Positions 49,446 through 62,769 of a stretch of DNA of 64,000 nt are shown in pieces. The stretch's first letter is position 1. Every line of letters starts with the position of its first letter. This DNA comes from Oscillospiraceae bacterium (GTDB taxonomy: Bacteria > Bacillota > Clostridia > Oscillospirales > CAG-272): assembly GCA_015063625.1 (NCBI GenBank), contig SVTT01000001.1, positions 248,001 to 312,000 on the forward strand, read 5' to 3'. The position numbers and the translations under genes are program-made. The notes under the pieces are model-generated. The model was not told the origin of the DNA. It searched no databases and worked only from the letters and a program-made list of their open reading frames with translations.

Positions 49446-49472
49446 TACCGCAAAGTGAGAAAAAGAAAGCAA

Positions 49473-49502
49473 GAGCCGCCGATCCCGCAGGATCGACGGC
49501 TC
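49473..49502 (-). terminator. Terminator of the surface-fibre locus
   Basis: Stem gagccgccgatcc/ggatcgacggctc (13 bp, one G-U pair on the transcript) around a 4-nt loop, with a T-rich tract on the minus strand, 10 bases after the stop of the uL15-like gene. Confidence 0.8.
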
Positions 49503-49511
49503 CGATCGGAT

Positions 49512-51881
49512 CTATTTTCGCCATACTCTGCCACCCGTGAGAAGAATCATCTTCACGGCAAGCAAGGAAAATTCATCCGCCTCGACACGAAGCGGCTTTG
49601 TCAGCACACCGCGTCCAAGCACCTTGACCTTCAAAACACCCTTGGGAACCAGTCCCTTTGCCTTCATTTCCTCCACCGTAATCAGAGAATCGGCAGAAAA
49701 ATGTGCAGCCAGCGTATCGATGTTGACGACCGCCTTTCCCTTCAGCGCAGGTCCTTTTTCCTTTTTTCGAAGACCTCTTGTGCTCGCGATCGGTGCTTTG
49801 CGAAGCGCCTTACGCGCCTCCTTTTTAGAGGTCAAGGGCACATGTGGCGCTGCGGCATCCGACGTGGGTTCGCCGTCGCTATCGAGCTCTCTTGCACTGC
49901 CGATCAGACTTTGTGCAAGCTCATCTGACATTTCGGATGCCTGCTCGGCACTGATCGCATCGTGGATCTCAAAGGGCAGCGCTTCGACCTCGGCAACGGG
50001 CGTTTGCTCGTCCTCCTCGGCGTCGACGCGCACAAAGCGTGCACTGTTCTGCTTCAGGAACGCCTCGCCCTGCAGCTTCTCCGCGGCGTGCGCACCCGTG
50101 GCGAATACCTTGATCTCCCCTGCTCGGATCAGCTCCTCGGTGGTGCGGTATGCCACCGTGAAGTCCTCGGGCTCTCTGCCGATGCGCTCAAGCCCTGCCC
50201 TTTCCATCAGAATGTCGATCAGCTCCACGCCCCATTTCATGGCGCGGTCCGAGCGCAGCTTCAGGCGGAAGGGCACCTCGGCATAACGCTTTTTGTCGCC
50301 CACGTTCTGGAAGATGTATTTGGTATCGGCAAACTCCTCGGGATCAAGCGCCAGATACAGCGAGAGTGTTTTTCCTTGGATCGAGAACTGCGCGTAGGTG
50401 TTCTTGCGCAGACGGAAGGTCTCGCTCTTGAAGCTGACGCGCGATCTCACGCCGAAATCAAGCAGCTCGTTCTTCAGCTCGGAATAACGGCGCTGCACCG
50501 CTTGCTCTGCTTGGCAAAGCCTTGCCGTAAAGCTGCGGCTGTAACGCACGTAGATCTCCTTGCCGTCCACGATCACTCTGCCGCTATCGCTCGCATCGTC
50601 CTGAACCACCGCAATGGCATCGATATCAATCTCAGTCCCTGCAGCGGGCTGCTCATCGGGAATGGCAACGGGTTCTTCGACGATGGGTTCTTCAACGATG
50701 GGTTCTTCGACGATGGGTTCTTCGATAACGGATTCTTCGACGATGGGTTCTTCAACAACGGAATCCTCGGCAACGGGCGTTTGCTCGTCCTCCTCGGCGT
50801 CGACGCGCACAAAGCGTGCACTGTTCTGCTTCAGGAACGCCTCGCCCTGCAGCTTCTCCGCGGCGTGCGCACCCGTGGCGAATACCTTGATCTCCCCTGC
50901 TCGGATCAGCTCCTCGGTGGTGCGGTATGCCACCGTGAAGTCCTCGGGCTCTCTGCCGATGCGCTCAAGCCCTGCCCTTTCCATCAGAATGTCGATCAGC
51001 TCCACGCCCCATTTCATGGCGCGGTCCGAGCGCAGCTTCAGGCGGAAGGGCACCTCGGCATAACGCTTTTTGTCGCCCACGTTCTGGAAGATGTATTTGG
51101 TATCGGCAAACTCCTCGGGATCAAGCGCCAGATACAGCGAGAGTGTTTTTCCTTGGATCGAGAACTGCGCGTAGGTGTTCTTGCGCAGACGGAAGGTCTC
51201 GCTCTTGAAGCTGACGCGCGATCTCACGCCGAAATCAAGCAGCTCGTTCTTCAGCTCGGAATAACGGCGCTGCACCGCTTGCTCTGCTTGGCAAAGCCTT
51301 GCCGTAAAGCTGCGGCTGTAACGCACGTAGATCTCCTTGCCGTCCACGATCACTCTGCCGCTATCGCTTGCATCGTCCTGAACCACCGCAATGGCATCGA
51401 TATCAATCTCGGTCCCTGCAGCGGGCTGCTCAAAAACAGCATTTTCCGGTACCGTTATGGGGGATATGGCCATATTCTCTTGTTCTTCGGCGACTTCTTC
51501 AAGGACAGGCTCCGCCTCCTCCTCGGTGGCAGGCTCAGCGACTTCTTCAAGGACAGGCTCTGCCTCCTCCTCGGTGGCAGGCTCAGCGACTTCTTCAAGG
51601 ACAGGCTCTGCCTCCTCCTCGGTGGCAGGCTCGGCGATCGCTTCAAGAACGGGCTCGCTCACGATCACCGATTCGTTGGTCACGCGCGGAGCCTCCTCAA
51701 CGCACGGAAACACAGGGCGGTCATCCTCCCATTCTCTTTTTCCGCGATTGACCTCACGCCGCAGTGCACAGAGCGAAAGCACCAGCAAAATTGCCGTACA
51801 AGCGATCAAAACGATCTTGACGGGCCACGTCCATGGAATGATGCCAAATATATCCGGTAATGCCATGAAATAATTCCGCAT
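49512..51881 (-). CDS. Membrane-anchored protein with two near-identical domains and a uL15-like C-terminus
   Basis: 789 residues, no family name I can assign to the middle. Layout: one N-terminal membrane span (about 18-42), an acidic 16-residue repeat array (EPVLEEVAEPATEEEA, about 75-131), segment A (about 150-372), an EEPIV pentapeptide array (about 370-404), segment B (about 409-632, identical in protein sequence to A over the duplicated part), a basic linker and a C-terminal ~75 residues (VNIDTLAAHFSADSLI then KAKGLVPKG and VKVLGRGVLTKPLRVEA) that resembles the C-terminal half of ribosomal protein uL15. Segments A/B (SFTARLCQA, FSIQGKTLSLYLALDP) resemble an uncharacterised Bacillota domain. 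ATG with AAGGAGG, last gene of the locus. Confidence 0.8.
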   Translation of the reverse strand: MRNYFMALPDIFGIIPWTWPVKIVLIACTAILLVLSLCALRREVNRGKREWEDDRPVFPCVEEAPRVTNESVIVSEPVLEAIAEPATEEEAEPVLEEVAEPATEEEAEPVLEEVAEPATEEEAEPVLEEVAEEQENMAISPITVPENAVFEQPAAGTEIDIDAIAVVQDDASDSGRVIVDGKEIYVRYSRSFTARLCQAEQAVQRRYSELKNELLDFGVRSRVSFKSETFRLRKNTYAQFSIQGKTLSLYLALDPEEFADTKYIFQNVGDKKRYAEVPFRLKLRSDRAMKWGVELIDILMERAGLERIGREPEDFTVAYRTTEELIRAGEIKVFATGAHAAEKLQGEAFLKQNSARFVRVDAEEDEQTPVAEDSVVEEPIVEESVIEEPIVEEPIVEEPIVEEPVAIPDEQPAAGTEIDIDAIAVVQDDASDSGRVIVDGKEIYVRYSRSFTARLCQAEQAVQRRYSELKNELLDFGVRSRVSFKSETFRLRKNTYAQFSIQGKTLSLYLALDPEEFADTKYIFQNVGDKKRYAEVPFRLKLRSDRAMKWGVELIDILMERAGLERIGREPEDFTVAYRTTEELIRAGEIKVFATGAHAAEKLQGEAFLKQNSARFVRVDAEEDEQTPVAEVEALPFEIHDAISAEQASEMSDELAQSLIGSARELDSDGEPTSDAAAPHVPLTSKKEARKALRKAPIASTRGLRKKEKGPALKGKAVVNIDTLAAHFSADSLITVEEMKAKGLVPKGVLKVKVLGRGVLTKPLRVEADEFSLLAVKMILLTGGRVWRK
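49988..50655. repeat. Near-identical tandem repeat, copy 1
   Basis: 668 bp, repeated at an offset of exactly 777 bp (259 codons). By eye only two substitutions are seen between copies (50592 vs 51369 and 50634 vs 51411), both silent. Confidence 0.9.
50671..50775. repeat. 15-bp minisatellite encoding acidic pentapeptides
   Basis: Seven units such as ggttcttcgacgatg (minus reading gives EEPIV/EESVI). In frame within the gene and lying between the two large copies. Confidence 0.85.
50765..51432. repeat. Near-identical tandem repeat, copy 2
   Basis: Second copy of the 668-bp unit in the same reading frame; the match starts at cctcggcaacggg and ends at gcagcgggctgctca. Confidence 0.9.
51490..51656. 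repeat. 48-bp minisatellite encoding acidic 16-residue units
   Basis: Three full units plus a diverged partial fourth of gcgacttcttcaaggacagg... giving EPVLEEVAEPATEEEA; single-base differences between units. Confidence 0.85.
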
Positions 51882-51895
51882 TCACGTGCCCCTCC

Positions 51896-54800
51896 TTACG
51901 GTATTATATAGGTAGCCAGTACAATACCCGCAGCGGGGCTTTGCACATTGGTGGTTTCGATCAAGCTGACGGTATAACCCGAGAGTCCGTTTGCAATCAG
52001 ACCGTTCGTGCCGTCCGCATGATAGTAAACCGCGTCAAAAGTACGGCAAACGGGATTTACAGCAAAGAAGGCTACATCTCCGATCGCGCCCTTGTCGGTT
52101 TTGGTGATACGCCATACGTACTGTACGTTCTCGTGTCTGCGATCCTTTACTCCCTCAAGCTCGTCGCCGCGCACAAAGGCAAAGGCACCACTATCGCTCA
52201 CGGCGTAGGAAAGCGTGACCGAGGGACAGACGGTATACACCGTTTCACTGTGCTCTGCCCCGGACAAGGTCGCGTCCAAATCAAGAAGCTCTTGCGACCA
52301 CTCGCCGTAGGTCAAAGTGTTTAGATCTTTGTGGTACTCTGCATGGACTGAAAGCGTGACCTCGGTCTCTCGGTCAAGCTCGGCAATATGATTGGGCAGT
52401 GTGACGACCAGAGAATACCCCTCGGCATAAAGCGAGGAATACCCCGTGGGCAGAGATAGCTTTTGTCCTGTTCTCATATCGGTAAAGTCCGCGCTATAGA
52501 CCGAGTTGGCGGCGCTTTCCAATATCAGAACGGCTGCATCGTGGGCAACACCGTTGAAGGAGCGGTAAAGGCGAAGCGAGGTGCCCGCAGGCAGGGAGTA
52601 TCCACCAAAGCGGAATTCGACGCCCTTGCCTTGATGCCCCGACACGGCACATTGCGCCAGCTCCTGCCCTGCCGCGCCGTAATTGACGAAATACTGTGCG
52701 GTGAAGACACCATCCTCATAGATGATGGGCGCATCGGCAGAATAGCCGTCCCCACCGACGTAGAAGGCGACGTTGTCGGAATAGACCTTCAGATAGAGGA
52801 AGCCTGTGATCTCCTCCTGCGCCAGATAGAAGCCGCCGTCATAGGTCAGCTTATCGGTGACGTTCGTAAAGGAGTAGCCGCCCTCCCCGTCCCGATTGCA
52901 GATGAACAGATCAAAGCTCGGCACACCGCCCCACGCGGCATCAGGCTCGGGGATAAAGGAAAAGCCTTGGAAGGTATCAATAGGAATCAGATCGGGCGCA
53001 TCGGTCCCGTCGGGCTGCAAAAAGCCCGATGCAAAGCAGGATCTGACCGTGATGCCGTCAGGCGCCTCTACCAATACGTCATAGATCCATCTTGCATAGA
53101 AGGAGATGGAGCCGTTGACCGAAAGCGATCCACTCTCACAATAGTCATAAAAGGACGTGCCGTAAGCACTCAGCGTGGATGCCTCGCTCGTCATATAGTA
53201 GCCTGTAAGCGTGAGTCCAAAGCGCTCAACACCCTCGATCCGATCTCTGACGCGCTCATAATAAGCGCTGTCCAAGACCGTGTCTGTTTTCACCGCATCC
53301 ACGAAATAGCGATCATTCTCGATACCGCGGTCAAACACCATATAGTAAACGATGGGAAACTCAGCCGTGATCTTGATGCTGCCGACATCGGCGGTGAGCA
53401 GCTCTGCGGGAACAGTTACGGTATAGGAGCCTTCATCGGCGATAAAGGTGTAGGCAAAGGGATAGTCGGAATAGGGTGTGCCGTTTACCGTAACAACGGC
53501 ATTCGCAGAAGCATCGGAGGTGGCAAAGGTCATGCCGCTGAGCGAATAGACCTTATCACCGATCATGATCTCCAAGCGCTCCGGCATCTCGCCATAGCCG
53601 ATCAAGGGAGAGACGGTAAAGTCGAACGGCAGATCGACGGCTGCCTTTCTGTCTGAGCTCAACGAGGTGCCGGAAAGCTCACTGCTGAAGTCGATCGAGT
53701 GGCTCACCACGATCTTGACGGTGACGTTGATCGAGGAGTCACTGAACAAGGTGCAGGTGACGTCAACGGTATCGCCGTTGTCGGCATTCGCAGGGATCAG
53801 AACCGTACCGTTTGGCGAAACACCCGTGCCCGAATAGGTGACCTGCGACATATAGATCGAATAGGGGAAGCGATGGGTCTCCACCATTTCAAAACGCACG
53901 GTATCACCGGGGACATATACGTATTCTCCCTCGCTGCTTATGCCAAGCGGCGGCGTATCCTCAGAGGGTGCGATCTCGATATGGTCGATATAGTTGGGCA
54001 CGACCTCGACGATCACGCCGTTGTTGCCGCATTCAAGCAACAGTACAGTGCGACGGTCAATGTATTGCAGAGGTGTGACGGTGATCGCCGCGCCGACGTT
54101 ATCACTTCCCACCTTGAGTCTTCCGTTAAATCTGGAATAATTGATGGCGCTTCCCTTTGCTCCCACCAGCGTCTCAATATGAGCCTGATAGGTAGCGCCG
54201 TCTGCCTTCGAGATCCAGGAGGAGCTCTGATCGCCAAGCTCGGCAAGTGAATCCGGAACCGTCACATCATACATTCTTGCAAGAGAGAGCGCGACAGGAT
54301 TATCAAACGTGACCGTCAGATTCTGCAAGAGCGACACCTGACCCACATTGACGAGCAGATGGTGATACGTCATGCCGTTCACGGTATGAACATAGTAGCC
54401 CGCCGTATTGTCAGCAGTCACGGGCGCACCGCTGTCGCTATCGGTCAAGTGAATGCCGGAGGTCGCAGTCGAGCCGCTGTTGGCAACAACGGGATAGGTG
54501 CAGGCAGGATACCACCCTGCGGCGGCAGGATCTGCCGAATCGATGCCAGAGGCATCGGTGCTGCCGAAAATGTTGACCCAAAGCGTGGCAAACATATTGC
54601 CGTTTTGATTGTTATTCGCGCGCACCGTGGTGCCGTTGACGGAAAACGCCGCCGTATCACCGCTGAAACGCACCGCCATCGCACTGCTCTTTTGCGGGAA
54701 GACACTTGCCGACTGACCGTTTGTCAGCGCCACGGCATTGGAAAGCGTATTCGAATTCCTGCTGACACTTCCTGTCAAGGTCAGATATCCGGAGCAGGAG

Positions 54801-57800
54801 TTGTTGAGCACCGTTCCCTCGCGACTGATGCTCTCGGGAATGGGCTTGAGCGAGGCGTAATTAAGAAAGGCGTAGGAGGGCACATAGTAGTTCCCCGTCA
54901 CATTATTGACAGAGCCCTCACGGTGCACCGAAAGGGCGGCAATGCGCGTTCTGTCATCCACGCCCAGTGTTGAGGCAATCACGTTGCCCTTCAGCGAGGC
55001 ATTGTTACGCAGACAAGCCGTGACGCCCGCGGCATAGGCATATCTGCTGTTATTTTCCACTCGCGCCTCGACGACGGTGTTCAGCACATAGCAGGATTCA
55101 ACGTCAGCATGCTGGACAAGCCCCGCAATACCTGCGGCATACGCCTCATAAGCGACCGAGGAGGCAAGCACGTTGCCGTTCACCATCGAGGAGCTGACCA
55201 GCTTGGAGTGCGACATCCACCAGATGCCGCCCACGATGCCGCCCGCATAGGTGAGCATATCCTCCTCGCCGACCGCCTCAACAGAGGTATTGTAAACGTG
55301 AATGTTCTTCGCCAGCACGTTCACATCCCGATCTCCGCAGCCAAGCACGCCGATGGCGCCACCCGCATAGAGGTCACACTTGTTTTCGGCATTATCGCCG
55401 TCATAATAGCCCATCGCCACAACCAGCATCTTTCTCGCGACAACGCCGTCCACGGCATAGGGTGCATCCTTTGCGCGTGTCGCGCCGATCACACCGCCCG
55501 CCATCGAGGTATCGGGGCTATTGGTACAGTGAATGTGGACCATGGCTCGCGTACCGATGCTTTCGGCATGCAAATTCTTAACATAGGAATCCTTGACCAT
55601 ACCGAACACACCACCGGCATAGCCCTCGGTAGCATAATCGCTTCCGCCCGAAACGGCGTTCTGCATGGTTCTCACCGCGTGCTCCTGCGTATGCTCCTCA
55701 AAATAAACCGTGATACCGTCAACACCTGCGATTCCGCTGATGGAATTGGTACTCTGATTAACAGTGGCACTTCCGTATGTATCAAGCAGCCCGACAAAAC
55801 CGCCCGCATAGGCGTTATTGCCTCGGTAATTCGCACCCTGCCCGTAATTTGAGTCGTAGGAAAGCGAGAGCGCATGGACAGACGAATCGTAGAGCCTGAG
55901 CACGACGTTATGGAAGGAAGCCGTGCCGCCTGCAGTTCCCTCGGCAAGACCCGCAAAGCCGCCTGCGTAAAGGTCGCCGATCGCGGTAGAGCCTACCTCT
56001 CGCTTGGCGGTCGCGGTTCCCTTTTGTACTACAAAGGTGAAATCAGAGATCGAAAAATCCTTTTCAAGCACCGAGGTGAGGAAGCCTGCCGCCACAGGAT
56101 AAAGGTTATCACCCTCCTTGACAGCGGTTGACGCCTGCATTGCCTGCACATCGATCCTGTGTCCCGGGCTGTTCAGATTCATGGTATAGTGATAGTCCCC
56201 GCTAAGCACGGGTGTATCGTGCCCGAAAAGCCCGCCCGCATAGGCAGGACCGTATCCGTTCTGTACCGAGGAGATCGAAACGTCGATATCAAAGAAGGTG
56301 ACCGAGTCAGAGCCGGGGATATAGGTAACATCCTCATGGTGATTGGCATATCCGATCAGACCCGCGGCATAGGTAATACCCTTGGAGCTCGCCGTCTGCG
56401 TGCCCGCCCAGACGATCAGCTCTCCGTCCTCCTCGGAGGTAACGGTCACATGTCCGAGCGTGACCTTGTGGTCATTGCTTGAATAGATCATGCCATAGAC
56501 ACCCGCAGCGACTGCGCGGTCATCATCAACACCGCCGACACTGTCATGGATCAGGGCGGAAAGCGAGATATCGTCCTTCGTATCCATCCGAACGTGATGG
56601 ATCGATACGTCCCGATTGATCGCCTCGATACGACCGATCACGCCCGCAGCATTTGCATTGCCCGCATCATCGCCGCTGACCGTTGCCGACACCACGGCAC
56701 CGTTGGAGGTATTGGCAAGCCCATTGCAATAGTTGTCGGCAAATACGCCCAATACGCCGCCGAGATAAAGATATTTGTTATAGCCCGACGAGGTGGCACT
56801 GAGATTACTGAAGTCACCGGAATAGGTGATATCCGACCACACCTCGATCGGCGATTCACAACGGCCGATCACGCCGCCAAGGTCAATGGCAACGGGTGCA
56901 TTTGCGGAAAGCGAGAGGGAGGAGGTGGCGCCGTCAATCAGAACGCTGCCCGTCACCATACCCGCCATGCCTCCGAAATGGAGCACAGAGGGCCAATCAT
57001 CAAAATCACTCTCCTCGCGGAAGGACATGGAGCCGCGCACATCCACACCGCGCAGCAGACAAGGGGTGACGCCATCGCCCTCCACCCTGCCGAAGAAGCC
57101 CACGGATACCGTGCCGCCGGGTGCCTCGAAGGGTGCAAAGGAATTTTGCACGTACAGCGTCACGTGGTTGCCGTCAAAATCAAAGCAACCGCTGAAGGGC
57201 ACGCCCGCGCCGCCCAGGCGGTCAGAGCCGATGCCGATGCCGTAAAAGTCATCCTCGGTGATCAGTACGCTTGTAGCGAGGCGGAAATATGCACTCTTGA
57301 GCCCCTGCTGCGCCGCGTCAAGTGTGTCGAAGCCGAAGTGCTGATACTGCTCGGCAGTCGCAACGCCCTCCAGCACGCGCGCAAGGGCGACCACATCCTC
57401 TGCAGTTTCAAGAAGATAGGGGTTCGCAAAATATTTACCGCGGTTGTCTGCCAATGCCGCCGAGCTGGTGGAAAGCTGAATATTCAATATTCCGTCACTT
57501 GGGACGGTCAGCGTATGGATCGGCGAGGACACCACCGTTTCCTCCATGCCCGTACCCGTGAGAGTATAAGAGACAAACATTCTGCGCTCATTGACCGCAG
57601 TCAGCGTGACCGTTGCACCCGCGGGGGCGGCATAGTTGCCGCTTTCGTCAAGATACACGTCCTTACCACTCACATAGACCGACACGCCGTCAGCGCCCGA
57701 GATGTTGATCGCAGGGGCAGAGCGCGTGGGAGCCGAAAGCACGAGGATCGCCACGGCAGCAATGACACAAAGCAGAAAAAATGAGGTCACAAGGATCACT

Positions 57801-57826
57801 TTTCTGTTCCGCTTAAAAAAACTCAT
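51896..57826 (-). CDS. Giant GLUG-repeat and InlB-repeat surface protein
   Basis: 1976 residues, largest gene of the window. A hydrophobic signal/anchor at about 9-31 (RKVILVTSFFLL), then a long beta-rich region. Between about 280 and 980, sixteen segments of the type AGGxxG/AAGxxG (for example YAGGFVGLLDT, YAGGIVGGIW, AAGVIGRIE) recur, the GLUG-type beta-helix pattern known from adhesins and IgA-peptidase-like proteins. Around residue 1579 an InlB B-repeat-like end GSISFYARW is seen. No LPxTG motif or C-terminal membrane anchor. The ATG follows AAAGGAG. Context with SipW and TasA-like proteins suggests an extracellular or cell-wall matrix adhesin; binding partner unknown. Confidence 0.78.
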   Translation of the reverse strand: MSFFKRNRKVILVTSFFLLCVIAAVAILVLSAPTRSAPAINISGADGVSVYVSGKDVYLDESGNYAAPAGATVTLTAVNERRMFVSYTLTGTGMEETVVSSPIHTLTVPSDGILNIQLSTSSAALADNRGKYFANPYLLETAEDVVALARVLEGVATAEQYQHFGFDTLDAAQQGLKSAYFRLATSVLITEDDFYGIGIGSDRLGGAGVPFSGCFDFDGNHVTLYVQNSFAPFEAPGGTVSVGFFGRVEGDGVTPCLLRGVDVRGSMSFREESDFDDWPSVLHFGGMAGMVTGSVLIDGATSSLSLSANAPVAIDLGGVIGRCESPIEVWSDITYSGDFSNLSATSSGYNKYLYLGGVLGVFADNYCNGLANTSNGAVVSATVSGDDAGNANAAGVIGRIEAINRDVSIHHVRMDTKDDISLSALIHDSVGGVDDDRAVAAGVYGMIYSSNDHKVTLGHVTVTSEEDGELIVWAGTQTASSKGITYAAGLIGYANHHEDVTYIPGSDSVTFFDIDVSISSVQNGYGPAYAGGLFGHDTPVLSGDYHYTMNLNSPGHRIDVQAMQASTAVKEGDNLYPVAAGFLTSVLEKDFSISDFTFVVQKGTATAKREVGSTAIGDLYAGGFAGLAEGTAGGTASFHNVVLRLYDSSVHALSLSYDSNYGQGANYRGNNAYAGGFVGLLDTYGSATVNQSTNSISGIAGVDGITVYFEEHTQEHAVRTMQNAVSGGSDYATEGYAGGVFGMVKDSYVKNLHAESIGTRAMVHIHCTNSPDTSMAGGVIGATRAKDAPYAVDGVVARKMLVVAMGYYDGDNAENKCDLYAGGAIGVLGCGDRDVNVLAKNIHVYNTSVEAVGEEDMLTYAGGIVGGIWWMSHSKLVSSSMVNGNVLASSVAYEAYAAGIAGLVQHADVESCYVLNTVVEARVENNSRYAYAAGVTACLRNNASLKGNVIASTLGVDDRTRIAALSVHREGSVNNVTGNYYVPSYAFLNYASLKPIPESISREGTVLNNSCSGYLTLTGSVSRNSNTLSNAVALTNGQSASVFPQKSSAMAVRFSGDTAAFSVNGTTVRANNNQNGNMFATLWVNIFGSTDASGIDSADPAAAGWYPACTYPVVANSGSTATSGIHLTDSDSGAPVTADNTAGYYVHTVNGMTYHHLLVNVGQVSLLQNLTVTFDNPVALSLARMYDVTVPDSLAELGDQSSSWISKADGATYQAHIETLVGAKGSAINYSRFNGRLKVGSDNVGAAITVTPLQYIDRRTVLLLECGNNGVIVEVVPNYIDHIEIAPSEDTPPLGISSEGEYVYVPGDTVRFEMVETHRFPYSIYMSQVTYSGTGVSPNGTVLIPANADNGDTVDVTCTLFSDSSINVTVKIVVSHSIDFSSELSGTSLSSDRKAAVDLPFDFTVSPLIGYGEMPERLEIMIGDKVYSLSGMTFATSDASANAVVTVNGTPYSDYPFAYTFIADEGSYTVTVPAELLTADVGSIKITAEFPIVYYMVFDRGIENDRYFVDAVKTDTVLDSAYYERVRDRIEGVERFGLTLTGYYMTSEASTLSAYGTSFYDYCESGSLSVNGSISFYARWIYDVLVEAPDGITVRSCFASGFLQPDGTDAPDLIPIDTFQGFSFIPEPDAAWGGVPSFDLFICNRDGEGGYSFTNVTDKLTYDGGFYLAQEEITGFLYLKVYSDNVAFYVGGDGYSADAPIIYEDGVFTAQYFVNYGAAGQELAQCAVSGHQGKGVEFRFGGYSLPAGTSLRLYRSFNGVAHDAAVLILESAANSVYSADFTDMRTGQKLSLPTGYSSLYAEGYSLVVTLPNHIAELDRETEVTLSVHAEYHKDLNTLTYGEWSQELLDLDATLSGAEHSETVYTVCPSVTLSYAVSDSGAFAFVRGDELEGVKDRRHENVQYVWRITKTDKGAIGDVAFFAVNPVCRTFDAVYYHADGTNGLIANGLSGYTVSLIETTNVQSPAAGIVLATYIIP

Positions 57827-57880
57827 GGCGATTCTCCTTTCCTGATCGTTCGATCCGTCGGATCATGGCAACATTGCCAT

Positions 57881-58981
57881 TCATGATGATGCCGCGACCT
57901 CGTGCGCCGTGCCGTCGCCCTGCAGTCCCATGATCTGCGTGACACCGTCATTCTCGTACTTGTATTCGGTGTCTGCGATCTTAAAGTAGGCTGCCAGCTT
58001 GATGCTGACCGCACCGCCGCCGTGATAAAAATAAGTGTTGATCTCTCCACCCGACGGCATGAAGATCACGATCTGCGTGATCTCCCCCTCCCCGTTTCGG
58101 GCTACGTAATAACCGCGGGTGTATTCTCCGTCGCTCGAAAGCTCCTCAAGGTTGCCCTCCACCGACAGGCGGAAGCGCTCCTCGTCAAACACAAAGTCCC
58201 CCACAGGAGTAATGACCAGCTTGACAGGCAGGAAGGATTCTCCGATCTCGACGACCTGTCCGTCCTCATATGCGATCGGCACATTGAAATGCGAGGAGGT
58301 CTTGAGGTTGATGCCCATGACCGAAAAGCCGAAGGGATCCTCCTCAACAAAGGGACGTGCGACCACAAGATTGTTGGAAACGCGCACCTCAAAGACCTGC
58401 ACGTCCTGGTAGGGCACCGAGGTCTCGATCACGACCGTCAGGCGCTCAATATTTTCCATTGCGGGAACCGCACTGCCATCCACGATCGAGGTGGTGCGGC
58501 GTGTGATCCTCAGATACAGGTCGGTGCTCTGCGGCGTACCGCCCGTAAGCGAGGTGGCACTTTGCAGCGCATCACCCGTCAGCTCCTTGCCCGTGACGTC
58601 GGTGAGCACCACGTCGTAATAAGCACTTTCGGGGGTCACGGTAAGGGGGTCGCCCCATGCGTTGACCACCTCGCCAGCCGCGATCTCCGCCGTGCCGGGG
58701 GTGCGCACCTGAAAGCGGATCTCGCGCTTGGAGATCTCGCCGTCCTTTTCGTTGCTGACGCGGAAGCCGACCGAGCCACTCATATCGTCGCCCGTCAGCA
58801 CGACACTTTCCCTACCGCCCGTATGCGACAAGCAAAAGCCCACATATTCTCCCATCAATCGGTCATGCTGCCGATCCTCGTATTTCGAAAACGAGGTGCC
58901 TGCAAAAAGAAAGAGCAGAACGAGCGAGAGGAGGACGGTCACAAGGACGATCCATCGATGGTTTCTTAATTGCCTTTTCAT
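57881..58981 (-). CDS. SipW-type small surface protein with TasA-like beta-rich domain
   Basis: About 366 residues. N-terminal RNHRWIVLVTVLLSLVL hydrophobic segment followed by FAGTSFSKYED, a SipW-dependent-type signal end like that of the TasA-like gene of the locus (STFAKY). The mature part is beta-rich and acidic without known catalytic motif. The start was set at the ATG at 58981, which overlaps the preceding stop (ATGA) and has GGAGCAGGTGC upstream; the frame from 59020 is inside the neighbour. Probably a minor fibre or matrix protein; function inferred from context. Confidence 0.68.
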   Translation of the reverse strand: MKRQLRNHRWIVLVTVLLSLVLLFLFAGTSFSKYEDRQHDRLMGEYVGFCLSHTGGRESVVLTGDDMSGSVGFRVSNEKDGEISKREIRFQVRTPGTAEIAAGEVVNAWGDPLTVTPESAYYDVVLTDVTGKELTGDALQSATSLTGGTPQSTDLYLRITRRTTSIVDGSAVPAMENIERLTVVIETSVPYQDVQVFEVRVSNNLVVARPFVEEDPFGFSVMGINLKTSSHFNVPIAYEDGQVVEIGESFLPVKLVITPVGDFVFDEERFRLSVEGNLEELSSDGEYTRGYYVARNGEGEITQIVIFMPSGGEINTYFYHGGGAVSIKLAAYFKIADTEYKYENDGVTQIMGLQGDGTAHEVAASS

Positions 58982-59745
58982 TGTTGCACCTGCTCCATAT
59001 CTATGCGGATGTCCACACAAAGTCTGCCACTGCCCTCCTCATCCGAGCTGCCGATCTGTCTCGGCAATCGGATCTCAAGCATAAAGCCCTTTTGTCTTTG
59101 GGGGTCATTCATCGAAAAATAAAATCCCGTGCTGTGCAGGACGGCGCCGCCCTCCTCCTTGACACAGAGCAGATTGCCCGTATAATCGGTTTCGGAGAGT
59201 CGGTCACCGACCGGAATACGGACGTCCAAAAAATCGCTTTCATCAAACAGGGTCATCTCCGCAAGGTCGTGTCTGATGACCAGCTCCGCGCCCTGCATGC
59301 CCTCTACCTGATCGTGATCGACATCTGCGGCGTAATAATCCACACGGACCTCGGTGGTACCGCCATCACTGACCACCAGTCTCTCAAGATGCACGGCAAC
59401 GGTGACGGTGACCCTGACGGGAATCTCATTTTTCTTGCCGTCGGCATCAAAGTTGTCCACCGAGAAAAAGTATTTCAGCATATCGTTGGGCTGCAGATCG
59501 GTGAGGACGATGGTATCGCCCTCCTTCGAGAGCGCGTAGGATGTATAATCGTTGGACAAGACGTCACTTCGAAGCAGCTTGCCGCGGTTGTAATGACATC
59601 CGATGGTTGCCAGACTTGCCTCTGCTGCCGCCCTTCGCTCGGTATAATAGCTCGAATACGTCAAAGAAGCGCATAACGACCAAGCACCGACCAAAATGAT
59701 GACCAGTGCGACGGCTGCTATGCGCTTTCTTTTTCTCTGTAACAT
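58978..59745 (-). CDS. Small membrane-exported protein of the SipW locus
   Basis: About 255 residues. N-terminal basic MLQRKRKR, then hydrophobic core to LCASLTYSSYYTERR, a signal-anchor type end similar to the SipW-dependent group. The mature part contains beta-rich segments with no recognised motif (VRVTVTVAVHLERL near 135). The ATG at 59745 was preferred (GAGGTTGAGGAT upstream) over the TTG at 59772. ATGA overlap with the next gene. Probably an extracytoplasmic partner of the fibre; function unknown. Confidence 0.62.
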   Translation of the reverse strand: MLQRKRKRIAAVALVIILVGAWSLCASLTYSSYYTERRAAAEASLATIGCHYNRGKLLRSDVLSNDYTSYALSKEGDTIVLTDLQPNDMLKYFFSVDNFDADGKKNEIPVRVTVTVAVHLERLVVSDGGTTEVRVDYYAADVDHDQVEGMQGAELVIRHDLAEMTLFDESDFLDVRIPVGDRLSETDYTGNLLCVKEEGGAVLHSTGFYFSMNDPQRQKGFMLEIRLPRQIGSSDEEGSGRLCVDIRIDMEQVQQ

Positions 59746-59810
59746 ATCCTCAACCTCGTCAGGGCCGAGCAACGGAGCAGGAGATCGGCTACGATGGCAA
59801 AGCGCTCGCT

Positions 59811-60689
59811 TTACCCCTCCCCCGTTTCACGGTCGGATGCTTGTTGCGTTTCTTCGGTATCGTTTTTTGGATCGCCCGTCTGCGGTGCTTTGACCTCGGG
59901 ATTCTCATCGCTCTCCTCCTCGTCGGTGACAAAGGTGCAGCGAAGAACGTAGATCGAAACACCCACGATGACAAAGGCGAGGATCAAATACATCAGTCCC
60001 TCGGGGGTCTTGAGCCACTCGGCAAAAATTCCGACGCGGGGCAGGACCTTGACCACCTCACCGAGAATCTCGTCCTCGGCGACGGGTACGGTATCGAAGG
60101 AAAGATTGGCATCGCCCTTGGTGTAATACAGATCCCCCGTGATGCGGAGAATGCGGTGGGTGGTGGGAACGGTTTCTCCCTCCTTCAGGAAGGTGATGAT
60201 ATCCCCCGTTTTGTATTCGCCCGTTCTCTTGATGATGACCATGTCCCCCTCCTCGATCGTTCCGGACATGCTTCCCGTTACCACGATCAGCTGCGAATAG
60301 CCGGCAAAGGAGGGTACAGGCTTCTTCAGAATAAATTTCTGCACCGCAAGGGTCGCCACAACGACCGTCAAGAGTGCAAGAACGCAGGCGCCCACGCAGG
60401 TGAGCGCGCGCGCGACAATTTTTTTCGCCCTTGCTCGGGCGAAGGCTTTTTCGGCTTTTTTCACACCGTTTACAGGGTCATCTCCCTCGGCAGACGGCTT
60501 TTTAGGTGCCGCCTCCTCCGCATCCGCGACAGGCAGCGCCCCCTCATCATATGTATCATCGGTTCGATCCGCGCGAGGGGCTTCAGGCTCCTCCTGCGGC
60601 GTTGCTTTCAAATCTTGGTTTGAGGAGGTTACAGCTGCCTCCTCGCGCTCGGCGATGTGAGCTTTTTCAAAAGCTTCTTCTTTTTTCAT
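59811..60689 (-). CDS. sipW: SipW/ER-type signal peptidase I with long cytosolic extensions
   Basis: 292 residues. A ~95-residue acidic, proline-rich cytosolic N-terminal part, a first membrane span (about 93-115), the catalytic Ser in GSMSGTIEEGDMV near 139, a histidine (TTHRIL near 178) in place of the usual lysine, so a Ser-His ER/SipW type, and DGVY-like KGDANLSFDTVP near 192. A second membrane span near 229-249 and an acidic C-terminal tail (to 292). In Bacillus SipW processes TasA and TapA. The flanking genes are its likely substrates. ATGA overlap with the preceding gene. Confidence 0.9.
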   Translation of the reverse strand: MKKEEAFEKAHIAEREEAAVTSSNQDLKATPQEEPEAPRADRTDDTYDEGALPVADAEEAAPKKPSAEGDDPVNGVKKAEKAFARARAKKIVARALTCVGACVLALLTVVVATLAVQKFILKKPVPSFAGYSQLIVVTGSMSGTIEEGDMVIIKRTGEYKTGDIITFLKEGETVPTTHRILRITGDLYYTKGDANLSFDTVPVAEDEILGEVVKVLPRVGIFAEWLKTPEGLMYLILAFVIVGVSIYVLRCTFVTDEEESDENPEVKAPQTGDPKNDTEETQQASDRETGEG

Positions 60690-61519
60690 ACTGCTCCTCC
60701 AACGGGCTCTGCGTCGATCTGCACGATCAGCGAATATGACCCACCCTCAATACCGAGCGCGGTATCAAGGCCGTCATTCCCGTTTTCAAATTTCCATTCC
60801 CATTCCAGTGTGAAGTTTTGCTGAGATTCTGCGGGAAAGATCATTTCCGCGCACTCCAAAACAACACCCGTTTGGGTGCTTTTCTCAATTTGCAGGGGGA
60901 CATTGTTCATGCGTAGCCCATATTCGATGGGAAACACCTCTACGGGCTCACCGTTAAACAGCTGCGTAACAGTCAGCTTATATTTGAGCTTCAGTCTGTG
61001 GGGATTGCGAATGTGGAAGGGATATTCCCCGCTGCTACCCGGCTTGACGCTTGCATCAAGCACGGCAATGGTTTCCACAGCATCCCAGCTCGATTCTCCG
61101 TCCATGATATCGATCACGGGGATCTCCTTGTCGGGATCAGGCGGGATATCCAGCAGTGCAAGGGTCACAAGGATCAGCGCAAGGGTGGCGGAAAGCAGGG
61201 AGAGCAGCGTGACGGTCTTTCTGTCCACTGTACCCGCCTTCACTGTGCCGATCAGCTCCTCACCGCGATAAAGTCTGCTTCCGACCAGACGGAAATCATA
61301 TTCATCGCCGTGATAAACGCAGGTGAGAACGACTTCTCCCCTTTCGTCCTTTTGCTTACTGCGAGCGTTGAGAACGGCAAGCCGATTGCCCTTCAGATCC
61401 ACGATGGCTTTTTTTCCGACGCCGCAGACGATCCGCCCTTCTCTATCCTTGACGGCACGGCATGAGCGACCCATTGTGGGCTTACCGTCAAAGGCTTTGG
61501 TAAAACGGGTATTGTACAT
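60686..61519 (-). CDS. Membrane protein with cytosolic N-terminal domain in the SipW/TasA locus
   Basis: 277 residues. The first ~100 residues are hydrophilic, globular and beta-rich (SCRAVKDREGRIVCGVGKKA, LVGSRLYRGEELIGTVKAG), then one membrane span (about 106-126, TVTLLSLLSATLALILVTLALL), then an extracytoplasmic part with a TasA/camelysin-like look (KYKLTVTQLFNGEPVEVFP, FTLEWEWKFENGNDGLDTALG). The N-terminal part faintly resembles LURP/tubby-like folds but this is only an impression. AAGGAGG precedes the ATG. It could link cytosol to the fibre or act as an anchor; function unknown. Confidence 0.65.
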   Translation of the reverse strand: MYNTRFTKAFDGKPTMGRSCRAVKDREGRIVCGVGKKAIVDLKGNRLAVLNARSKQKDERGEVVLTCVYHGDEYDFRLVGSRLYRGEELIGTVKAGTVDRKTVTLLSLLSATLALILVTLALLDIPPDPDKEIPVIDIMDGESSWDAVETIAVLDASVKPGSSGEYPFHIRNPHRLKLKYKLTVTQLFNGEPVEVFPIEYGLRMNNVPLQIEKSTQTGVVLECAEMIFPAESQQNFTLEWEWKFENGNDGLDTALGIEGGSYSLIVQIDAEPVGGAV

Positions 61520-61554
61520 GCCCTGCCTCCTTCCTTAAAAATCAAGGCTCTCCG

Positions 61555-61576
61555 CCCCCCGAGTTGCCTCGGGGGG
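61555..61576 (-). other. Strong intercistronic hairpin after the TasA-like gene
   Basis: Nine-bp perfect arms ccccccgag/ctcgggggg around a 4-nt loop in the 109-nt gap before the next gene. No clear U-tract directly follows, so it may protect or partly terminate the upstream mRNA. Confidence 0.55.
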
Positions 61577-61628
61577 ATAGGAGAAGACCTTCTTGCATCG
61601 TTGCCAAGGGATCGGTCAAAGAGGCCGA

Positions 61629-62467
61629 TCAGTCGTTGACGACGGGAGCTTGCTGGATCTGCTCGATCGAGATCGTAAGACCAAACTGCGCGGTCAGTAC
61701 CGAACCGTTGTCCACATAGGAGTACGTGTCCGTACTGTGCTGAATGTACTTCGCTGTAGCATTGCCTGCACCGTCCGAGATCCAACCGAGAATGGTATCG
61801 CAATCATCACCGGTAAGGCCTGTCACGGCAGTCGTTACAGCGGAATTGTCAAAAGCCCACGCCCAGGAAAGGGTGTAGGTGCCTGCGCCCGCAAAAGTCG
61901 CATGGCGTCTGCGACCTGTCCGTTCAGCGCATTGATGGCAGCCACGCAAGCGGTAAGTGTACCGGCATCCACCAGCGTTTGGTTATTACCACCCGCTGCG
62001 GGGGCAAACACCAGCGTCCACTTGACGGGACTATAAGTAACCGCAGCAGCCTGCTCGGTGTTCTTGGTGACGTTTGCCTTCAGCTCAATATCGGTGCCGG
62101 TAGCGGTCACATTCAGCTTCGAAAGCACCTCGGCGGTACCGGCGATGGTAAAGGTCATCGAGCCGGTGGTGCCGGGAGCAACCACGTTACTCGTCGCGCT
62201 CGCATTGACGGCAACACCCGTATCGGCTTCAACGATCTCGGCGTAAGTACCCTGCTGGCCCTTGGTGTAGTCGGTGCCAAAGAGGTCCTCGGCATTGATG
62301 GTGATGACGTGGCCCCATTTTGCAACGGTTGCCTGCTTTGTGGGCATCACCTTAGTGGTAATGTACTTCGCAAAGGTGCTGCCGCCCAGGGTAAAGACGA
62401 CCAGCAGAAGCAGGGCGATCGCCACGATGAACAGGCGCTTGCCGTTCATTTTGTTCTTGTTTTGCAT
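61629..62467 (-). pseudogene. TasA/camelysin-like SipW-dependent fibre protein, frameshifted
   Basis: The N-terminal part (to about residue 189) reads from 62467: MNGKRLFIVAIALLLLVVF, then GGSTFAKYITTK, a SipW-type signal peptide, then a beta-rich TasA-like domain. It runs out of the normal frame near 61901-61904 and would stop at 61835. The C-terminal part is open in the -1 frame (TFAGAGTYTLSWAWAFDNS to IQQAPVVND, stop 61629). Restoring one base (GCCAATGCG) gives ADANATFAG and a 279-residue protein. So either a one-base deletion, a sequence error, or a phase switch; no slippery site was seen. AAGGAG precedes the ATG. First gene of the locus. The 62629 extension lies in the leader. Confidence 0.78.
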
Positions 62468-62540
62468 AGTCTTTCTCCTTTTCTTGTTTTTATCGCAAAA
62501 TGCTTTTGCACTTTGTTTTTGAAAAATTGCGCAAGTGCGT

Positions 62541-62577
62541 CCCCGAAAACAGCAATCAAAGCGGCTGTGCATCGGGG
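62541..62577 (-). promoter_or_regulatory. Leader hairpin of the TasA-like transcript
   Basis: Two-tier stem: ccccga/tcgggg outside and acagc/gctgt inside, 75-110 bases upstream of the start codon. Possible regulatory structure. Confidence 0.4.
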
Positions 62578-62734
62578 GCTTCCGTGGCAGGCGCGCTCGC
62601 GCACACATATCCGCCATTCCTTCCAACACCGCGCATGGGGGCTACAAAAGCGGCATTTTTCAGATGCCTTGCACAAGGAACCGCGAAAAAAACTGTTCAA
62701 ATGTTACAAGCGAATAGCTTGTGTCACATCCGAT

Positions 62735-62769
62735 GTTATAATTATAACACGGATACATTTTTTTGTAAA
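62735..62769 (-). promoter_or_regulatory. Promoter of the surface-fibre locus within a palindrome
   Basis: Minus-strand TTTACA (62764-62769), 17-bp spacer, TATAAT (62741-62746). The -10 box is inside GTTATAATTATAAC (62735-62748), a perfect 14-bp palindrome. Confidence 0.7.

Follow-up and report, generated by a model that had tools for sequence, protein, structure and literature searches.

The window analysed here is a stretch of 64,000 nucleotides, positions 248001-312000 of contig C10 of an Oscillospiraceae genome (1.76 Mb, 28 contigs, 93.7% complete). Seven consecutive genes, all on the minus strand and numbered g1 to g7 in the order of transcription, lie between a promoter-like site (62769-62741) and a terminator-like stem (49503-49472). 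They are flanked by miaB on one side and a 23S rRNA methyltransferase-like gene on the other (names from translations). L-numbers below refer to loci of relatives. The features of the locus are:

62741-62769, minus strand: promoter-like site TTTACA-17-TATAAT with TG ahead of the -10, matching 11/12 consensus positions, 274 nt 5' of the g1 ATG
61629-62467, minus strand: g1, TasA-like secreted subunit with the SipW-type signal end GGSTFAKY; frame broken near 61900
61555-61576, minus strand: strong hairpin in the g1-g2 spacer (61520-61628), which folds at z -3.4
60686-61519, minus strand: g2, uncleaved anchored subunit, with a predicted cytosolic beta domain (residues 1-95), transmembrane (TM) helix (100-123) and TasA-like ectodomain (130-277)
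59811-60689, minus strand: g3, SipW-like ER/archaeal-type signal peptidase (S26B), Ser140/His178
58978-59745, minus strand: g4, putative SipW substrate with signal end SLTYSSYY and a C-terminal strand (..RIDMEQVQQ) resembling g1
57881-58981, minus strand: g5, putative SipW substrate of 366 aa with signal end GTSFSKY
51896-57826, minus strand: g6, putative adhesin or fibre cargo, a secreted protein of 1976 aa containing about 12 GLUG-like repeats
49512-51881, minus strand: g7, membrane protein with an N-terminal TM helix, acidic linkers, two DUF5655-like domains, a short helical motif and a uL15-like tail
50883-51332, minus strand: g7 repeated domain, copy 1
50106-50555, minus strand: g7 repeated domain, copy 2
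49524-49739, minus strand: uL15-like C-terminal domain of g7
49472-49503, minus strand: terminator-like stem-loop of 14 pairs

The genes are tightly spaced. g1 and g2 are separated by 109 nt, g2 and g3 overlap by 4 nt, and g3 and g4 are 65 nt apart (38 nt if an upstream TTG is the start); g4 and g5 again overlap by 4 nt, followed by gaps of 54 nt (g5-g6) and 14 nt (g6-g7). An earlier sequence-only reading had described a tightly spaced seven-gene unit on one strand with one promoter and one terminator, and our analysis agrees, with the exception that g1, intact in relatives, is split between two frames here. Taken over the full scan, promoter-like sites were no more frequent than in shuffled sequence (9 against 7.7 expected), so the promoter call rests on the position of the extended -10 site and the quality of its match. 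No element was found in an Rfam search. A foreign origin of the operon was rejected, as its GC and GC3 equal those of the rest of the window and of the genome.

The proposed Ser-His signal peptidase was confirmed in g3, which passed the curated cut-off of TIGR02228 (69.5 bits against 51.85, E 2.8e-19) and fell below that of the Bacillus SipW equivalog NF046067 (63.6 bits against 190). Its catalytic pair is Ser-His rather than Ser-Lys, with Ser140 in TGSM and His178 in TTHR, and both residues are kept in 11 aligned SipW copies from ten loci. g3 is the sole SipW-like gene found in the source genome, and SipW-type genes are present in 66 of 118 relatives' genomes, at only roughly 25-44% identity. 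The three signal ends pointed out earlier in g1, g4 and g5 were recovered as well. The one in g1 follows the SipW-type pattern G-x-TF-A-K-Y, and g1 orthologues have similar ends.

Sequence searches did not connect the putative substrates to known fibre families. Comparison of g1 and seven orthologues with Pfam and NCBIfam gave no TasA/camelysin family, the TasA/camelysin family models matched no locus member, and nothing usable came from searching PDB sequences with g1, g2 or the g7 repeated domain. Armadillo matches of g1 were confined to one 38-residue stretch and were taken as chance. The profiles of g1 and g2 detect each other (hhalign probability 94.8, E 5e-8, over the W-x-W-x-F...DTxLG region), and the g1 profile also matches g4 weakly (E 4e-4). 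In the AlphaFold2 model of g2 (pLDDT 73, pTM 0.45, 8 sequences), a beta domain at the N-terminus is followed by a TM helix (residues 100-123) and a beta ectodomain. When this moderate model of the ectodomain was structurally realigned to solved chains, the TasA fibre 8aur ranked first (Z 7.9, 3.4 A, 135 residues), followed in the same list by Pyrobaculum bundling pili (7ueg, Z 7.2), the Sulfolobus thread (7pnb, Z 6.9) and chaperone-usher pilins. The model thus supports a TasA-type fold for the g2 ectodomain and falls short of proof, because the Z score is moderate and could reflect a common beta-sandwich arrangement. For g1, a TasA-type fold is suggested through its profile homology to g2. The moderate match to the TasA-like fold expected of the substrates was seen in g2, which had been described simply as a type II membrane protein with a cytosolic domain. 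It is indeed a membrane protein, but rather than a miscellaneous one: profile comparison identifies it as a g1 homologue, a TasA-like subunit that stays anchored.

Genomes were scanned with the g7 repeated domain (a 6-row alignment subset), which yielded 80 loci; homologues came from metagenome-assembled Clostridia whose names point to animal guts. The order g1-g2-SipW-g7 recurs in six other Clostridia contigs (L088, L094, L097, L098, L105 and L107, some incomplete at contig ends), and the g7 orthologue of L097 keeps the uL15-like tail. L167 and L168 have g1, g2 and SipW and lack g7. The gene order suggested as a check thus held for a four-gene unit, and the complete seven-gene order is not conserved.

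We found no homologues of g4, g5 or g6 among the relatives, and a search of 294 further family genomes gave no relative of g6. g6 is the 1976-residue repeat protein noted before, with about 12 GLUG-like repeats ([Y]-A-G-G) between residues 354 and 937. Where the contig reaches far enough 5' of g1, the six core contigs instead encode a FAKY-type protein of ~370 aa and a giant protein of up to 1261 aa. These cargo proteins are homologous to each other with no recognisable kinship to g4, g5 or g6, and a profile of the giants does not match g6. Because the core order recurs while the relatives' cargo is not recognisably related to g4-g6, comparison of gene content indicates that the operon is a fixed core (g1, g2, SipW and g7) with exchangeable cargo. 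A SipW locus of another kind is found in one congener (L069; G012:C74, 1-11701). Besides SipW and a gene with the repeated domain, it encodes several FAW-type substrates and a protein of 2040 aa that has a SipW-type signal end and resembles BspA-type leucine-rich repeat proteins.

The spacer between g1 and g2 contains a hairpin in all eight loci examined (the window, the six core contigs and L168). The eight spacers fold at z -3.1 to -6.5, and no shuffled sequence was equally stable. Neither of two further spacers within the window operon folded strongly (z +1.2 and -0.7). The hairpin sequences are unrelated among loci, and their position after the TasA-like gene is constant. We interpret the hairpin as probably an mRNA stabiliser or a partial terminator. 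A hairpin after the first gene would be expected if g1 were the major fibre subunit, because that subunit would be needed in excess; its position therefore suggests over-production of g1.

The duplicated domains and ribosomal-protein-like tail reported for g7 were both verified. The DNA of the two copies of the ~152-aa domain differs at 1 of 643 positions. Against Pfam, the repeated domain reached no family threshold (DUF5655, PF18899, 21.9 bits against a gathering score of 24), and profile-profile comparison by hhalign aligned it with DUF5655 over 105 columns (probability 94.7, E 5.7e-8), making it a probable distant relative of that family. The tail matched PF00828 (E 2.8e-12, 47.3 bits against 21.5); the full-length L15 equivalog TIGR01071 was matched at positions 72-143 only, below its cut-off (31.4 bits against 77.95). 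Both domains in the modelled C-terminal half of g7 are predicted with confidence (pLDDT about 98 and 97), and the fold list of this model is filled by uL15. The tail superposes on ribosomal uL15 with Z 11.6 and 1.2 A over 74 residues and corresponds to the complete C-terminal globular domain. It differs from the rplO product in lacking the N-terminal half, in being tethered to the membrane and in its signature (KxLARGxLxKPLxVEAxxFSxxAxKMIxLTGG), and the host has its own rplO elsewhere. In the tree, the uL15-like tails are separated from the rplO proteins that their own genomes encode (support 100/99, one long-branch exception), with the tails on g2-type proteins as a subgroup (97/81). Because net charge did not separate the tails from ribosomal uL15, rRNA binding can be argued neither way. 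The repeated and uL15-like domains probably face the cytosol, because both follow a single TM helix with basic residues after it. The earlier idea that the last gene encodes an anchor or assembly factor needs modifying: g7 cannot serve as a surface anchor in the usual sense, as its domains follow the N-terminal TM helix on the probable cytosolic side. Its orthologues share an N-terminal TM motif around EW..(V/I)K(I/V).LI.

Several further observations concern these domains. Tandem DUF5655-like copies within a protein are often near-identical: identity reaches 90% or more in 7 of 38 adjacent pairs, a count in which one protein appears twice, with examples in the window (50106-51332), L056/L207, L069, L122, L135 and L068. 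Because such copies are so alike, the copy number of the domain seems to change often, with duplication recurring across species. A short, conserved helical motif of about [VI]xxxEAxxLMSDxxAxxLI follows the acidic linker and precedes most uL15-like tails (L034, L047, L057, L058, L059, L060, L077 and g7). The repeated domain was present in 20 of 20 congeneric genomes searched (L083, L033-L054), in most of them at the extreme C-terminus of a surface protein with a signal peptide, ectodomain, TM helix and E/P/A-rich linker. The own-genome copy L083 (C24:78901-79863) has an ectodomain that looks GLUG-like, as in g6. L113 and L143, on contigs labelled Anaeroplasmataceae / Anaeroplasma, also contain the domain and would lie outside Clostridia if the labels are right.

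Fusions in relatives connect g2 with g7. In seven loci (L076, L178, L179, L181, L182, L183 and L185), a g2-type ectodomain, a TM helix and a uL15-like tail occur in one protein beside g1, and in most of these SipW was called next to the fusion gene. In L170, the repeated, DUF5655-like domain is fused to a g2-type domain. The modules fused in relatives sit on two separate proteins, g2 and g7, in the window. Given this correspondence, g2 and g7 are most simply interpreted as partners at the membrane.

We consider it fairly likely that the operon builds a donor-strand-type surface fibre, with g2 as a membrane base coupled through g7 to a cytosolic partner. SipW (g3) would free g1, g4, g5 and possibly g6 from their signal or TM ends, and the TasA-like g1 would then polymerise outside the cell. 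g2, with a similar ectodomain and a retained TM helix, would be the membrane-bound first subunit or base. g4-g6 would represent species-specific cargo, namely minor subunits and a giant adhesin. g7 would be a membrane neighbour of g2 whose DUF5655-like and uL15-like domains reach into the cytosol. It would provide in trans the uL15-like tail that the relatives' g2 homologues have in cis, and would thereby couple the fibre base to a cytosolic partner. This interpretation draws on the conserved core, the homology of g1 and g2, the TasA fibre as best match of g2, the three SipW-type signal ends, the hairpin in 8/8 loci, the fusions, and precedents. One precedent is TasA, which assembles by donor-strand exchange (PMC9674648). 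Another is C. perfringens, in which BsaA requires SipW for its secretion and polymerisation (PMC7395162).

g7-type and uL15-tail proteins are also found far from any SipW, and judging from this distribution their role need not be fibre-specific. SipW was present on the stretch examined in 12 of the 80 repeated-domain loci, and of the 17 uL15 tails from the 118 relatives, about 3 have SipW no more than about 11 kb away. This distribution, and the presence of a repeated-domain protein in every congeneric genome searched, would suit a g7 that stands outside the fibre system, its DUF5655-like and uL15-like tails being a general cytosolic module (a scaffold, ribosome tether or sensor) merely located in the operon. 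We judge this unlikely: the adjacency to SipW is well above the roughly one case that we estimate from SipW gene density, g7 lies directly 3' of SipW in six loci, and uL15 is fused to a g2-type anchor in seven.

Products released by SipW might alternatively remain monomers, with g1, g4, g5 and g6 exported and held singly at the surface as adhesins or enzymes, and g2 serving as their membrane receptor. The absence of detected homologues of g4, g5 and g6, which are unlike the relatives' cargo, is compatible with such a role. We find this rather improbable in view of the homology of g1 to a g2 with a TasA-fibre-like fold, the hairpin 3' of g1 and the over-production it suggests, and the polymers made in both the SipW/TasA and SipW/BsaA precedents.

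In the assembly, g1 consists of two overlapping ORFs (61835-62467 and 61629-61949), both still recognisable as members of the g1 family, and its orthologues in the six core contigs are single open frames. Programmed frameshifting was rejected as an explanation, as the break showed no canonical slippery site and the relatives are unbroken. The break near 61900 could make the main subunit a pseudogene in a decaying locus that has lost fibre production, but this is very unlikely given that a metagenome assembly may contain a sequencing error, both g1 parts still read as g1 family, none of the remaining six ORFs is broken, GC and GC3 are those of the genome, and g4 or g5 could stand in for g1.

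Most of what is known about SipW fibre systems comes from Bacillus and C. perfringens. The locus resembles tapA-sipW-tasA of Bacillus subtilis in its dedicated ER-type signal peptidase, TasA-like fibre subunit and beta-sandwich fold. It differs from that operon in having no recognised TapA and no sequence match to TasA families. Its additional components are g2 as a TasA-like subunit with a TM anchor, the giant repeat protein, and a membrane protein whose DUF5655-like and uL15-like domains are probably cytosolic. Like sipW-bsaABC of Clostridium perfringens, it is a SipW operon from a clostridial genome that encodes several secreted substrates, and one substrate of the C. perfringens operon polymerises; an anchored g2 or a g7 counterpart is not mentioned in the available part of that report (PMC7395162). 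The window locus, in contrast to sipW-bsaABC, showed no two-component regulator genes. Archaeal bundling pili and the Sulfolobus thread likewise have strand-complemented beta-sandwich filament subunits, but they are archaeal, belong to other operons, and their match to g2 may reflect a common fold only. A literature search for uL15 fusions, non-ribosomal use of the uL15 fold and DUF5655 found no relevant report.

The locus is thus a probable surface-fibre cluster. The earlier assignment to a SipW/TasA-type fibre locus stands as far as the kept core order and the g2 fold match are concerned, with only four of the seven genes in the conserved unit. The accompanying claim of a new fibre type gives way to a variant of the SipW/TasA/BsaA systems with an unusual cytosolic module of DUF5655-like and uL15-like domains, its uncommon feature being a ribosomal-protein fold on the cytosolic side of the proposed fibre base. 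As a more speculative step, which we regard as a long shot, the uL15-like domain at the inner membrane face might form the cytosolic end of the fibre base and there bind ribosomes, rRNA or a 50S assembly factor. If so, subunits and the giant adhesin would be made and exported where the fibre assembles. The anchored g2 is a candidate base subunit and would explain how a SipW-type fibre is held in the membrane, and recurrent attachment of a ribosomal-protein fold on the cytosolic side marks the conserved Clostridia version. Together these features yield a model, open to experimental test, of how a fibre base is assembled in uncultured gut bacteria.
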